Shown here: positions 22,976 through 35,772 of the stretch, piece by piece
Layout of the letters: every line of letters begins with the position of its first letter
Numbering within the stretch: position 1 is the first letter of the stretch
Assembly: GCA_016204145.1 (NCBI GenBank)
Contig: JACQLK010000021.1
Coordinates: 1 to 43,845 of the forward strand
Length of the DNA: 43,845 nt
Direction: 5' to 3'
Source: Candidatus Pacearchaeota archaeon
Lineage (GTDB): Archaea > Nanobdellota > Nanobdellia > Pacearchaeales > GW2011-AR1
Notes under the pieces: generated by a model
The model's input: only the letters and a program-made list of their open reading frames with translations
Database searches by the model: none
What the model was told of the DNA's origin: nothing
Program-made: the position numbers and the translations under genes

Positions 22976-23440
22976 TCATTCTTTTTTCTTATGATTCAGG
23001 ATTATTTCCCCGCCGGCTTCTTTGACTTTTTCAATCGCGGATTTCGACGCCTCTTTCGCTTTTATAAAAAGTTTTTCTTTGACTTCTCCGTCGCCGAGAA
23101 TTTTATAATCCTTAAGGATTATTTCAAATCCGTCCTTTGATTTTTTCGCGATACCTTTTTTCAAAAGCGTTTCGATGTTTTCCTCTATCGCATTGAGATT
23201 CATTTTCTTCCTTTTGTCCCTTTTTGTTCCCCTGCTTGTTATTCCCTGCTTTCCGAAATATCCGTGCCCGTAAAGTTTCAGTATCAGCGATTTTTTATGG
23301 TCTGCCCTTTTTCCCGTTCCGGCCATTCCGACTCCGCCGTGATGTCCGGATTTTTTGCTTTTCTTTCTCGAGCCGGTTCCATGGGTCCCCATGCCCTTTC
23401 CGTGCATCCTCGACGATTTTTTTCTTTTTTTGATTTTCAT
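22976..23440 (-). CDS. rpl15: Ribosomal protein uL15
   Basis: KKSSRMHGKGMGTHGTGSRKKSKKSGHHGGVGMAGTGKRADHKK. Confidence 0.93.
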   Translation of the reverse strand: MKIKKRKKSSRMHGKGMGTHGTGSRKKSKKSGHHGGVGMAGTGKRADHKKSLILKLYGHGYFGKQGITSRGTKRDKRKKMNLNAIEENIETLLKKGIAKKSKDGFEIILKDYKILGDGEVKEKLFIKAKEASKSAIEKVKEAGGEIILNHKKKE

Positions 23441-23916
23441 TTTGAAATTTCTTTTTCTAGAGTTATACTATGCTCATTAAATCCTAAATTTTTATATAAC
23501 TCAATAGCTTTTTTATTTTGAGCAGATGCGACAAGTTTAATTCTTTTAACCTTTTTTTCTTCGCACCATTTTAGGAATTTGTTAATTAATTCTTTTCCTA
23601 TCCCTTTGTTTCTATGTTCTTTTAAAACAAACATATTTTCTAATTCGGCAGAATTATCAACGTTTCTATAACTTTCCAGTTTGCATATAGCTCCGACAAG
23701 ATAACCTACAATCTTTTCATCAATAACAACTACTATTGTAAAACTATTTTTGCTATCCTTTATTCTTTTTTTAAAATAATCAGCTCCATCTTTACCAAAA
23801 GTCCATCTAAGATTTAATGTTTTGTCATATTCATTATATTCTTTCTCAAATAACTGAAGGTTCAATTTTTGTATATCTTCCAAATCTTCTATAGTTGCTT
23901 TTCTAATTCCTGCCAT
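23437..23916 (-). CDS. GNAT family N-acetyltransferase inserted between uL30 and uL15
   Basis: IRKATIEDLEDI, FVLKEHRNKGIGKELI, LVASAQNKKAIELYKNLGF; TGATG and ATGA overlaps with neighbours. Confidence 0.9.
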   Translation of the reverse strand: MAGIRKATIEDLEDIQKLNLQLFEKEYNEYDKTLNLRWTFGKDGADYFKKRIKDSKNSFTIVVVIDEKIVGYLVGAICKLESYRNVDNSAELENMFVLKEHRNKGIGKELINKFLKWCEEKKVKRIKLVASAQNKKAIELYKNLGFNEHSITLEKEISK

Positions 23917-24341
23917 CACAGCATCCTCTCCAACAATTTATTTATGTCTTTTCCGTGATTTCCCAAAACGCCTTTCTTTTTTCCGAAATGAATTTTCGAA
24001 TCGATTCCGCCCCTCGGAGGATGCAGGCGGAAAAACGGCTTGATGTTCGCATCTTCATAACCTTTTCCTTTCATTATTTCCTCGGCGGCTTTTTTTAAAT
24101 CGGTTTTCTTTTTTTTGTCCATCTGCTTTCCCCTTTTCTCAACGAGTTTTGAAAACATTTCGTCGTCTATTTCTCCGTAAGCGACAAAGTCCTTGATTTT
24201 TTTCAATACTCCGAGCTCTTCCGCCTTCGGTTTTTGCATTACGACGCATGAATATTTTTTTCTCAGTCGGATTCTATTTAACGATTCCGCCGCATCTCCT
24301 CTTAGCCCGACTTCTCCGCGTATTCTTATTATGCAAATCAT
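23916..24341 (-). CDS. rpl30: Ribosomal protein uL30
   Basis: MICIIRIRGEVGLRGDAAESLNRIRL...FRLHPPRGG; start moved from ORF-track 24578 to 24341. Confidence 0.92.
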   Translation of the reverse strand: MICIIRIRGEVGLRGDAAESLNRIRLRKKYSCVVMQKPKAEELGVLKKIKDFVAYGEIDDEMFSKLVEKRGKQMDKKKKTDLKKAAEEIMKGKGYEDANIKPFFRLHPPRGGIDSKIHFGKKKGVLGNHGKDINKLLERML

Positions 24342-26907: not shown

Positions 26908-27288
26908 TTAGTAGAAAAACGCTATCAGGCATCCTCCAAGCCCCTCTTGTTCCGCTTCCTCGTGGGTTTTCAGCCCGCCGTTGGTGGAAATTATCATTGT
27001 TCCGACGTTCCTTGACGGAAGGTATCTTCTTTTGTATTTCTCGATTTCGCTTTTCCCGACGGTAAACCTGGGTTTTATCGCCCTGCATTCGACGATGTCG
27101 CCTATCGTCACTTCGACGGATTTTTCCTTGCTGTCTATCTTGTATTTTTTTATCGCGCCGGTTCGCTTCATTATTTTGAGGATTTCAATCAGCATGTTTG
27201 ACACTCTTCTGATTTTTACTTCCTCGTTTCCAGCCTTGTTGGCGTTTCTCATCATGTTCATTGCGTCTGAAATTACATCATGTGACAT
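26908..27288 (-). CDS. rps8: Ribosomal protein uS8
   Basis: MSHDVISDAMNMMRNANKAG, VGTMIISTNGGLKTHEEA. Confidence 0.93.
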   Translation of the reverse strand: MSHDVISDAMNMMRNANKAGNEEVKIRRVSNMLIEILKIMKRTGAIKKYKIDSKEKSVEVTIGDIVECRAIKPRFTVGKSEIEKYKRRYLPSRNVGTMIISTNGGLKTHEEAEQEGLGGCLIAFFY

Positions 27289-27338
27289 TATGCAAAATCC
27301 TCCCTGCTTTGTATGCTGAAAAATTTTTTGTTTTTCAT
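27288..27338 (-). CDS. Candidate mini-ORF MKNKKFFSIQSREDFA* between uS14 and uS8
   Basis: ATG one nt after uS14 stop; TAA overlaps uS8 ATG (TAATG); near-copy of the element at 35474-35524. Confidence 0.45.
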   Translation of the reverse strand: MKNKKFFSIQSREDFA

Positions 27339-29169: not shown

Positions 29170-29193
29170 TTTTTAATTTTTCTTAAATTAAAA

Positions 29194-29221
29194 TTGAGCC
29201 GATTTCTTGGTCGGCGATTTT
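29194..29221 (-). repeat. Intergenic hairpin element, copy 1 (uL14-uL24 gap)
   Basis: ttgagccgatttcttggtcggcgatttt; stem gccga/tcggc; same arms as copy at 30415-30442. Confidence 0.5.
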
Positions 29222-29621
29222 AATATACAATCGAGCCGATTTTTGCAACACTCGGCCATCTTTCCAAAACCTCCCTTGCAATAGGTCCCTTAATTTGCGT
29301 TCCCTTTGGGTTTCCTTTGTCATCTTTCAATATTGCGACGGCGTTGTCCTCAAACGCAATTCTTTCCCCGTTGTATCTCCTGTACGGTTTTTTCAGCCGA
29401 ATTATTATCGCGTCGAAAACCTTTCCTTTCATATCTGGAATTCCTTTTTTTATGCTTACTTTTACAAAATCCGCAATCTTTGCGCCCATTTGTCTTCCTT
29501 TTTTTCCTTTTCCTCTTTTTACAGAAACAAGTCGGACCATTCTCGCGCCGCTGTTGTCGGCCGCGACTAATTCCGCTCCGAGGTTTACTCCCTTTGTCGC
29601 CCTCGCTGATATTGCTTTCAT
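29220..29621 (-). CDS. rpl14: Ribosomal protein uL14
   Basis: GAELVAADNSGARMVRLVSVKRGKGKKGRQ. Confidence 0.95.
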   Translation of the reverse strand: MKAISARATKGVNLGAELVAADNSGARMVRLVSVKRGKGKKGRQMGAKIADFVKVSIKKGIPDMKGKVFDAIIIRLKKPYRRYNGERIAFEDNAVAILKDDKGNPKGTQIKGPIAREVLERWPSVAKIGSIVY

Positions 29622-29677
29622 TTGAAATAACCTCGGAATAAATTTCTGATTAATGGAAATATCTGATTTGCTTTCAT
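29618..29677 (-). CDS. Candidate mini-ORF MKANQIFPLIRNLFRGYFK* between uS17 and uL14
   Basis: ATGA overlap with uS17 stop and ATGA overlap with uL14 start; exactly fills the gap. Confidence 0.35.
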   Translation of the reverse strand: MKANQIFPLIRNLFRGYFK

Positions 29678-30055: not shown

Positions 30056-30355
30056 TCATTCGCTGATTGAGTCCCCCTCAAATCCGAGTTTTATGAGCAG
30101 AGGTTTTATCTTTTTTCTGTGGTCTCCCTGCAATTCAACTATGTTGTTCTTGAATGTTCCTCCGCATGCGAGCTCGTTCTTCAACGCCTTCGCGATTTTC
30201 TTCACATCCATTCCGCTTTCAAATCCCATTATCATTGTCGATATTTTTCCGAATTTTTTCTTTTCGGTTGTTATTTTTATTTTCTGCGAACTTTTTACTA
30301 TTTGTTCGCAAACGCACGCCTGCTGCGGCAAGCCGCATTTCGGGCAGATTTCCAT
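30056..30355 (-). CDS. Translation initiation factor aIF1 / SUI1
   Basis: MEICPKCGLPQQACVCE...FGKISTMIMGFESGMDVKKIAKALKNELACGGTFKNN. Confidence 0.92.
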   Translation of the reverse strand: MEICPKCGLPQQACVCEQIVKSSQKIKITTEKKKFGKISTMIMGFESGMDVKKIAKALKNELACGGTFKNNIVELQGDHRKKIKPLLIKLGFEGDSISE

Positions 30356-30486
30356 TATAAATTTCTCCTTGTGCAAAGTTCTTCTTTGTACGCCGGCTTT
30401 TTGCTGAAATTTATTTGAGCCGATTTTCCTATCGGCGATTTTGCAAAATCTCCAGATTTTTTATGCGTGAAAAATTTATTTTTCAT
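30355..30486 (-). CDS. Candidate 43-aa mini-ORF MKNKFFTHKKSGDFAKSPIGKSAQINFSKKPAYKEELCTRRNL* between uL29 and aIF1
   Basis: ATG overlaps uL29 3' end; TAA overlaps aIF1 ATG (TAATG); first part resembles mini-ORFs at 27288 and 35474. Confidence 0.4.
   Translation of the reverse strand: MKNKFFTHKKSGDFAKSPIGKSAQINFSKKPAYKEELCTRRNL
30415..30442 (-). repeat. Intergenic hairpin element, copy 2 (uL29-aIF1 gap)
   Basis: ttgagccgattttcctatcggcgatttt; stem gccgat/atcggc. Confidence 0.5.
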
Positions 30487-31329: not shown

Positions 31330-31746
31330 TTATTTGCTCCTAAAACTAAACCCCCTCTTTTCAATAACCTCTTTTATTCTTTTAATTTCACTGGGTAAAA
31401 TTGGGAAAGCTATAGGCAGACGCGCATCATATAATTTTTTTGATAAATCGTCTCTTGTGAAATGATATCCCATTGCGCTCATTCCGATAATAAACAAATT
31501 AGGATTTATTTTTCTAACATGTTCGGTATAATCTTCAGAAGTTCCCTCTACTTGATAATTGTCTCCGGCATCAATTATAAGCACGTCATAATTTTTAGGA
31601 TTCCTTTCCCTATTGGCATAACTGGAATTGAGATTAAAATCAATTGTCTCGCATGGAAATTCGTCTTTCCATATCCTTGCTAATCCTTCTGGAGAATCTC
31701 CTTTAATCAACAAAATTCTCGGTTCTCTTGCTTGTTCTTGATTCAT
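31330..31746 (-). CDS. 138-aa protein inserted between uL22 and uS3, possibly receiver-like fold
   Basis: RILLIKGDSPEGL...YDVLIIDAGDNY...LFIIGMSAMGY...LPIAFPILPSEIKRIKEVI pattern; ATGA overlap with uL22. Confidence 0.7.
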   Translation of the reverse strand: MNQEQAREPRILLIKGDSPEGLARIWKDEFPCETIDFNLNSSYANRERNPKNYDVLIIDAGDNYQVEGTSEDYTEHVRKINPNLFIIGMSAMGYHFTRDDLSKKLYDARLPIAFPILPSEIKRIKEVIEKRGFSFRSK

Positions 31747-33775: not shown

Positions 33776-34012
33776 TTATATTATTCCCAACTTCGTCGCA
33801 ACGTCGATTGCGGGAGACGTTTTTTTTAATTTAACGTAAGCGTATCTTTTATTGTCTCTTAACAAAGTTCTTATTTTTTCAACTTTAACTTCAAACAAGT
33901 CCTCGATTTCTTTTTTTATTTTTTCCTTTGTCATTTCCTTTCCAAGTTGGAATGTCAGCGTGTTTTGCAATTCAATGAGCATTACCGCTTTTTCAGTTGT
34001 TACCGGTTTCAT
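33776..34012 (-). CDS. rpl23: Ribosomal protein uL23
   Basis: VTTEKAVMLIELQNTLTFQL...YAYVKLKK. Confidence 0.92.
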   Translation of the reverse strand: MKPVTTEKAVMLIELQNTLTFQLGKEMTKEKIKKEIEDLFEVKVEKIRTLLRDNKRYAYVKLKKTSPAIDVATKLGII

Positions 34013-34680
34013 CTTTTCAATTCCTCCGGAACTTCGTATTTTGAATATTCTTCAAACATATTTTTTCCATAAAGCAATCTTGAAAAACATTCGGCGGTGA
34101 GTTTGCAATCCTCGAGCGCGTTGTGCGCGTTTCCTTTCTGGACAATTTTCCCGTCGACGATTTGCGTTCTTTTGTCCGGAAGCCCGCAGAAATTCAAAAT
34201 GTTTGTGAGATTCATATTGCTCTCAAATCCGTCAGTATCTTTTCCTGGTCTTATAAGAAATTCATCATTTATCTTAAGATGCATTGCTTGGGCGATACTA
34301 TGCAGATCAAATGCCCTGTGCTGAATCGGCTTTTTCAATCCGTATTTCTTTGCTCTTATTTCAATTATGGAGATATCAAACTGCGGATTTTGGCATAAAA
34401 CGTTTCTCATCGCTCTTCCAGCCATCCATTTGAAGAAATTTTTCAAAAGCTCTTGTTGTGAAATTTTTTCCTCATCTCTTAATTCATCTTCTGTTTTTCC
34501 AATTATTACTAATGCGTCTTTTTCTATAAAATCGTCGTCGTCAATCCTAGATTCTTCCAAAAATTCTTCCATCGTATTCAAATCAATTGCGCCTATCTGC
34601 CATATTCCGCATTTCACTCTATCTAACCCGGAGGTCTCAATATCAAGAACAATCGGCATGATGTTTGATTTTATGCTCAT
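34009..34680 (-). CDS. DEDDh-type 3'-5' exonuclease inserted between uL4 and uL23
   Basis: IVLDIETSGLD (DxE), HNALEDC (HxAxxD) and 4-nt ATGA overlaps at both ends. Confidence 0.85.
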   Translation of the reverse strand: MSIKSNIMPIVLDIETSGLDRVKCGIWQIGAIDLNTMEEFLEESRIDDDDFIEKDALVIIGKTEDELRDEEKISQQELLKNFFKWMAGRAMRNVLCQNPQFDISIIEIRAKKYGLKKPIQHRAFDLHSIAQAMHLKINDEFLIRPGKDTDGFESNMNLTNILNFCGLPDKRTQIVDGKIVQKGNAHNALEDCKLTAECFSRLLYGKNMFEEYSKYEVPEELKR

Positions 34681-35474
34681 TTTAATTTTTCCCCCAATTC
34701 CTTGATTGCTTCTTCCGTGTAAACCGTCAATCTCCCGAGTCCGCCATTTGCCAAATCGTTGACGCCGAGGTTTCCGACTTTTGCAACGTCGATGATTTTT
34801 GAATTTGTTTTTTCCTTGTTTCCCGTCACGAGAAGCATCCCTGCATTTTGCTTGTATTTTCTTCCCCTTAATTTTCCTTTTCCGCTTCTCATTGTTTTTA
34901 TCCTTAATGCAAGTCCGAAAAGCTTTTCCTCAAGAATATTTTTCAGCAATTTCACAAAATCCTTTGTCTTCAACCCGAGAACTTTTGATTCAATGACAAA
35001 AGGAAGGTTTTTTATTTTCTCGTCTTTCAATGTGAAATATTTCTTTGACAATTTCTCGGAATTTGCCGTCGCGATGATTGCGGATTTCAACGCAATTCCC
35101 ATTTCTTTTTTGTTTATTTTTTTTCTCGTAAGCATTTTCAAAATTTTCGGAGGATGCGCCCTTCTTCCGCCTCGCGTGCTCGGCGCTGTCGCGCCTTCCC
35201 AATTGAACTGGCTTCCCCTTCGCGAAAATATTTTTCTCGGAATTCTTGAAAGCCCCTTTCCCCGGTCGGATTTCCAAACGTGTCTTCTATGGCTCAGAAT
35301 TCCGGAGGCGGAAGATTGATTTCCGCTCATTGGCGAAGGTGCATACGGTTGCTTTATCTTCTTCGCTTCAAGAACTTTTGCGACGATGTCTTCTCTTATA
35401 TTTTCATTGAAAAATTTCGGCAACTCGATTTCCTTTGATTTTTTCCCGCTTGAATCGAAAACTTGCGCTTTCAT
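34677..35474 (-). CDS. rpl4: Ribosomal protein uL4
   Basis: GARRAHPPK-like GGRRAHPPK, GKGLSRIPRKIFSRRGSQFNWEGATAPSTRGGRRAHPP. Confidence 0.94.
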   Translation of the reverse strand: MKAQVFDSSGKKSKEIELPKFFNENIREDIVAKVLEAKKIKQPYAPSPMSGNQSSASGILSHRRHVWKSDRGKGLSRIPRKIFSRRGSQFNWEGATAPSTRGGRRAHPPKILKMLTRKKINKKEMGIALKSAIIATANSEKLSKKYFTLKDEKIKNLPFVIESKVLGLKTKDFVKLLKNILEEKLFGLALRIKTMRSGKGKLRGRKYKQNAGMLLVTGNKEKTNSKIIDVAKVGNLGVNDLANGGLGRLTVYTEEAIKELGEKLK

Positions 35475-35524
35475 TATGCAAAACTCCTCCAGTTTTGTAT
35501 GCTGAAAAATTTCCTGTTTTTCAT
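35474..35524 (-). CDS. Candidate mini-ORF MKNRKFFSIQNWRSFA* upstream of uL4
   Basis: ATGA overlap with the 83-aa gene stop; TAATG overlap with uL4 start; GGAGG in loop of CAAAACT-GGAGG-AGTTTTG hairpin. Confidence 0.45.
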   Translation of the reverse strand: MKNRKFFSIQNWRSFA

Positions 35525-35772
35525 TTTATTTCAATTCCATATCTTCTCTTTAATTCCTTTGAATTGTTAAATAAATAATCATCATACATTGTCGTATCAA
35601 TTAGAAAGCTTTTTGCTACTTCCATCGTCTGCAAATATTCATCAACCGCAACTTGAGGAGATACATTTCTGTTTCCCCCCTTTTCAATCACAGATTCCAA
35701 TTGATTGACTTTTGATTTCAACGCTTCAATTATTCCCTTTTCCAATAAATCTCCATTGACTTTGTATCTCAT
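35521..35772 (-). CDS. 83-aa unknown protein inserted between uL3 and uL4
   Basis: Open frame with ATGA overlap to uL3. Confidence 0.65.
   Translation of the reverse strand: MRYKVNGDLLEKGIIEALKSKVNQLESVIEKGGNRNVSPQVAVDEYLQTMEVAKSFLIDTTMYDDYLFNNSKELKRRYGIEIK

Follow-up and report, generated by a model that had tools for sequence, protein, structure and literature searches.

The hairpin that lies ahead of the uL4 gene is one copy of a dispersed palindromic repeat, which probably acts as a termination-reinitiation relay between neighboring genes and would be tolerated at start codons as it preserves their coupling. It was found in the window, that is, the whole stretch of 43,845 nucleotides that was analyzed, which carries a Pacearchaeota (Nanoarchaeota) ribosomal-protein operon on its minus strand; the closest relatives fetched are labeled Pacearchaeota or Nanoarchaeota. 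All the data are genome sequences, mostly metagenome-assembled.

The uL4 element and its copies in the operon

An earlier note on this DNA had described a perfect 7-bp stem that presents a Shine-Dalgarno sequence (SD) in its loop, and this is exactly what is found at 35479-35497 (−), where GGAGG forms the 5-nt loop immediately 5′ of the gene identified as uL4 (PF00573). Beyond what that note had seen, the hairpin makes up the 3′ end of a 16-codon mini-ORF, a second hairpin (TGAAAAA/TTTTTCA) lies at the start of this mini-ORF, and the whole belongs to a genome-wide repeat. The mini-ORF overlaps its neighbors on both sides: its ATG and the TGA of an upstream 83-aa ORF (orf83) share ATGA, and its TAA runs into the ATG of uL4 as TAATG. 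When we scanned 47 related loci we obtained recurring mini-ORFs of two classes, A, which ends in TAATG, and B, which ends in ATGA. From 20 class A sequences, partly picked by eye as seeds, we built the covariance model R1. The elements of the window are the following:

35474-35524 (−): class A element before uL4, mini-ORF MKNRKFFSIQNWRSFA followed by its stop, R1 match of 46.1 bits
35479-35497 (−): SD hairpin CAAAACT-GGAGG-AGTTTTG, exact in the sequence, with covariation in the family
35503-35523 (−): 5′ hairpin TGAAAAA-caggaaa-TTTTTCA at the start of the uL4 mini-ORF, from sequence and folding
27288-27338 (−): class A element before uS8 (mini-ORF; the copy spans 27286-27338), MKNKKFFSIQSREDFA followed by its stop, TAATG overlap, R1 match of 30.1 bits
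30355-30486 (−): decayed or composite element before eIF1/SUI1, an open 43-codon mini-ORF MKNKFFTHKKSGDFAKSP...CTRRNL followed by its stop, TAATG at the eIF1 ATG (30355), R1 match at 30437-30474
29618-29677 (−): class B element before uL14, mini-ORF MKANQIFPLIRNLFRGYFK followed by its stop, ATGA overlaps at both ends, R2 match of 74.4 bits
26862-26906 (−): related mini-ORF before uL6, MKTRNFQVSLGGTR followed by its stop, TAATG overlap, internal GGAGG

The copy in front of uS8 has the same layout as that of uL4 and is 86% identical to it over 58 nt. The earlier note had proposed that it retains GGAGG on a weaker stem; the sequence is indeed kept, but the hairpin is not the predicted minimum-energy fold, in which GGAGG is partly paired with a 5′ AUUUUUC. 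The mini-ORFs before uL6, eIF1, and uL14 fill the intergenic gap and finish in a stop-start overlap. Particularly, the start that the ORF tool assigned to eIF1/SUI1 (TTG at 30376; 30353-30376 of the window, −) is probably wrong, and the conserved start is probably the ATG at 30355, which the mini-ORF overlaps. This eIF1 site is empty in G001, a genome of the same genus. A G+C-rich palindrome (TCGCCGA...TCGGCTCAA) occurs at 29177-29221, between uL14 and uL24, at 30398-30442, inside the eIF1 mini-ORF, and also in the element of another locus, L135, and is possibly a second small repeat. The operon also holds extra ORFs, namely the 83-aa ORF already mentioned (35521-35772, −), which is without a Pfam match, a 138-aa ORF (31330-31746, −), and a GNAT-like acetyltransferase named by eye (23437-23919, −), while an RNase T/Rv2179c-like exonuclease gene (34009-34680, −) sits between uL4 and uL23.

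Considered alone, the uL4 hairpin is marginal with respect to chance: within the final 36 nt of the mini-ORF, the strongest stem exceeds that of 95% of dinucleotide shuffles (p = 0.05), and the predicted fold of the 53-nt element has a z of −1.8. Its significance comes from the family of copies, and not from the single hairpin.

Distribution, stem, and reading frame of the repeat

A pattern search for the simple motif in 126 genomes of the family, with the reversed motif as a control, found a few genomes strongly enriched (e.g., 26, 16, 12, 10, and 6 copies against 0). With R1 we obtained 143 matches in nine Pacearchaeota genomes, 11 of them in the genome of the window and 43 in one relative; when the model was run on 234 genomes of the class (E ≤ 0.001), only nine had matches, all within a single family, and no match was found outside it. 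Congeners differ in their number of copies (21 against 5 and 34 against 4), and the nearest neighbor of a copy lay within the same genome in 40 of 57 cases, where 13 were expected. Because matches are confined to nine genomes of the family and nearest neighbors fall so often in the same genome, the distribution of the repeat is patchy and its copies are genome-specific: it is a dispersed palindromic repeat that occurs in some genera of one Pacearchaeota family. It is usually ~45–60 nt long, with nested copies of up to ~160 nt. At three loci of G001 (L139, L140, and L142), a palindromic insert (GCGATTGGCACGGCGATTACG...GCATCGC) is nested in elements of ~35–41 codons and leaves their frame open, and at three loci of G112 (L144-L146) hairpin units of 26–28 nt (ATGATAAAAATTCAGGAGAATTTTCATA) stand in tandem, two or three before a gene. 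Virus-borne copies were discarded, as the 80 viral contigs fetched by the tail motif scored at most 24.6 bits with the model, which corresponds to chance. When the copies were searched with Rfam, no known RNA family was found, only tRNAs near some of them. In the open-access literature, against which novelty was judged, we found no account, for DPANN archaea, of mini-ORFs like these on palindromic or dispersed repeats, and by that measure the repeat was previously unnamed.

The stem around the SD is kept through compensatory changes in the repeat family. In the seed alignment, 97.8% of the cells are paired, changes on both sides are seen at four of the seven stem pairs, and covariation reaches 0.42 (0.14 ± 0.03 in shuffles); sliding the stem partner, as a control, gave at most 63% pairing. 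With 77 distinct genomic copies, in an alignment fitted to the model, pairing was 93.1% and covariation 0.32 versus 0.11. Among the variants are CAAAACT-GGAGG-AGTTTTG, CAAAACC-AAGGA-GGTTTTG, TAAAATC-CGGA-GATTTTA, and AAAATTC-AGGA-GAATTTT. In 21 class A elements that were picked on frame architecture only, SD stems reached 6.93 versus 5.02 ± 0.27 in dinucleotide shuffles. The stems of the class B (ATGA) set were not above shuffles and their covariation was modest, so we restrict the hairpin claim to class A. The 5′ hairpin at the start of the mini-ORF is also above shuffles across copies. Taken singly, the hairpins have little stability (about −2 to −10 kcal/mol), and the SD is unpaired, in the loop, in nearly all copies, that of uS8 being the only one predicted to pair it.

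The mini-ORF is subject to a constraint of its own. We located the 5′ ATG by motif, ignoring the frame, in copies of 41–161 nt; 76 of 83 had it in phase with the final TAA (p = 1.4e-28, a value that is too small since the copies are related). Of 75 distinct copies, 74 had no stop within the frame of the mini-ORF; the two remaining frames were open in 2 and 21. One DNA core (CACAAATA, ATACAAAA) is found in each of the three reading frames (SAQIQN, STNTKS, HKYKI) while the mini-ORF stays open, which shows that selection keeps an open frame that ends at the start codon, and not a peptide. Nor is the phase explained by the inheritance of a single frame, given that three frames and so many lengths occur.

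Placement of the repeat at gene starts

Copies of the repeat lie at gene starts: 86 of 103 finish on the ATG that opens an ORF of at least 50 aa, compared with 38% of the other ATAATG sites in the same loci, and several of the remaining copies are units of tandem arrays with a gene behind them. The stop-start overlap of −1 or −4 nt seen in the window (TAATG at uL4, uS8, uL6, and eIF1; ATGA at uL14) is likewise present in most of the 103 copies, and the spacing from the upstream stop to the ATG of the mini-ORF is mostly +1, −4, or −1. For over a third of the copies (27 of 76), the 30 nt upstream contain no gene stop. The genes that follow, named from their translated starts only, code for r-proteins, GyrA, EF-2, CDC48, and proteasome, Sec, and RNase P subunits. 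At L135, the element begins ~18 nt after the end of a tRNA gene and stands ahead of a SecF-like membrane protein of 302 aa.

In most relatives the same genes directly abut (TAAAATG). G001 has no element at uL4; its uS8 is preceded by another mini-ORF, elements are present at its uS19 and uL29, and 31 bases of the window's element match its site before eL31. The earlier note had tied its interpretation to the conservation of the stem in relatives. The hairpin was absent from the uL4 upstream regions of G001 and of the other relatives compared, so the stem is not conserved at the orthologous site; it is conserved over the repeat family. At eL19, the site of G017 is empty (ACATAAA-ATG) and that of its congener G112 is filled by an insert of ~92 nt exactly before the ATG, with flanks that are 82–85% identical DNA. 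With regard to a target-site duplication, copies of the repeat have (A)ATG at both borders, and at this eL19 site the flanks overlap by at most 6 nt. Compared at the level of sequence, the filled and empty sites of congeners show a clean insertion at the start codon. Terminal inverted repeats were not found, as in the copies read by eye the 5′ end (ATGAAAAA/ATGACAGAA) and the 3′ end (TTTTGCATAATG) are not inverted copies of each other.

A proposed relay between genes and its alternatives

In H. volcanii and E. coli, coupling by termination-reinitiation needs a stop-start overlap, and a gap of ~20 nt almost abolishes it (PMC10666635). Since coupling is nearly lost at such a gap, an untranslated insert of 50 nt in an operon should be harmful, while a framed insert with both overlaps should not, and the open frame would be explained because overlaps at both ends should keep coupling. 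Each copy occupies, in sense orientation, the space that separates the next ATG from the preceding gene or from a promoter, and contains four parts: an ATG at or over the upstream stop, the 5′ hairpin, the SD-loop hairpin, and a stop that overlaps the next start (TAATG). Ribosomes that end the upstream gene would most likely start anew on the mini-ORF and open the SD hairpin; after terminating at the TAA, they would reinitiate on the overlapping ATG with the aid of the exposed SD. The element would in this way swap a direct stop-start junction for a relay, and would be neutral in operons where an untranslated gap breaks coupling. Copies that have no close upstream gene would serve as short 5′ leaders and not as relays. 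The SD often helps coupled reinitiation, and, according to one proposal, local structure prevents coupled genes from being initiated de novo (PMC6728339). The SD hairpin of the repeat, which is conserved, may exclude free ribosomes until the mini-ORF is read, which is the least secure step of the proposal.

Termination-reinitiation gene pairs (ATGA/TGATG; PMC6728339, PMC10666635) are among the closest known systems, as they share, in archaea, a stop-start overlap of 1 or 4 nt and an SD within the upstream frame. In the present case a mini-ORF, mostly of 13–50 codons, serves as the upstream frame, and it is carried on a dispersed repeat inserted between genes that abut in relatives. The 3′ end of the mini-ORF contains the GGAGG SD, and CCTCC, which the earlier note had suggested looking for in this genome, stands at the 16S 3′ ends of relatives: they read GGAT(C/T)ACCTCC, an anti-SD, also in three genomes of the same family (G009, G012, and G013). 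The window's assembly contains no 16S gene, and the anti-SD of its genome is presumed from these ends. Rickettsia palindromic elements are also short palindromic repeats that occur in many copies within an open reading frame, but they become part of proteins by in-frame fusion, and the peptide they encode is conserved (PMC10969869), whereas the Pacearchaeota elements stay outside the protein, with their own stop before the gene start, finish with a stop-start overlap, and show no conservation of the peptide.

The same copies could belong to a selfish palindrome of the REP or MITE kind. In that case its hairpins would help it to spread as DNA, its open frame and TAATG would reflect only purifying selection against polarity, and its SD hairpin would have no regulatory role. 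We regard this as unlikely, although it largely overlaps with the relay, the main difference being the role of the hairpin. MITE and REP-type repeats are likewise small, palindromic, multi-copy, and without a movement gene of their own, and the lineage-specific amplification, the tandem units of G112, and the nested palindromes of G001 are congruent with such an origin. However, sense-only placement at start codons and an SD in the loop of most copies exceed what tolerance needs, and these elements differ from MITE and REP repeats in lacking visible terminal inverted repeats. A mover of the Y1-transposase type (REP/RAYT-like) is not supported: PF01797 is absent from seven copy-rich genomes (G001, G088, G112, G119, G026, G069, and G127) and present in G000.

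Autoregulation of r-proteins via mRNA structure is established in bacteria, and the position of the hairpin in the uL3-uL4 operon, at the start of an r-protein gene, led to the idea that uL4 or uS8 binds it and represses translation, the hairpin acting as a gate on the SD. The hairpin with the SD in its loop is indeed a real, covarying structure in related sequences; its gating by uL4, uS8, or another specific ligand is very improbable, as the same hairpin precedes gyrA, CDC48, and EF-2 as well as proteasome and Sec genes, is absent at uL4 in the relatives compared, and has no Rfam match in the window. Unlike r-protein leaders, the element is neither r-protein-specific nor conserved at the orthologous site. 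Regulation specific to r-proteins was dropped once copies were found before unrelated genes, and we consider it largely refuted. Equally hard to sustain are conserved functional micropeptides (MKNKFFSIQ.../MTExxFS...): like peptides do recur across genomes, but the three readings of one core with an open frame indicate that the nucleotide sequence and the openness are kept, and a conserved peptide was rejected on this ground. An RNA thermometer acting on the SD, suggested by the A+U-rich stem of low stability, is the least credible, since the SD lies in the loop and not base-paired in the stem as in the fourU type, uS8 excepted, and no Rfam thermometer matched.

The copies may represent a new class of mobile elements specialized for start codons, a proposal we make tentatively, at slightly less than even confidence: a palindromic repeat that would insert at gene starts with a translational relay (mini-ORF, SD hairpin, and stop-start overlap), spread through essential operons without breaking their coupling, and perhaps retune the genes it enters. 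One is led to ask what could move an element of 50 nt within genomes of less than 1 Mb. Gene starts and small proteins are easily misannotated in these genomes, the eIF1 start of the window being an example. Repeats normally spread where they are harmless; this one is found where essential operons are most sensitive, and it seems to persist because it brings its own translational hand-over. If so, nature would have provided a replicated experiment on archaeal termination-reinitiation, in which one cassette, with varied stems, SDs, and frame lengths, stands before dozens of known genes.
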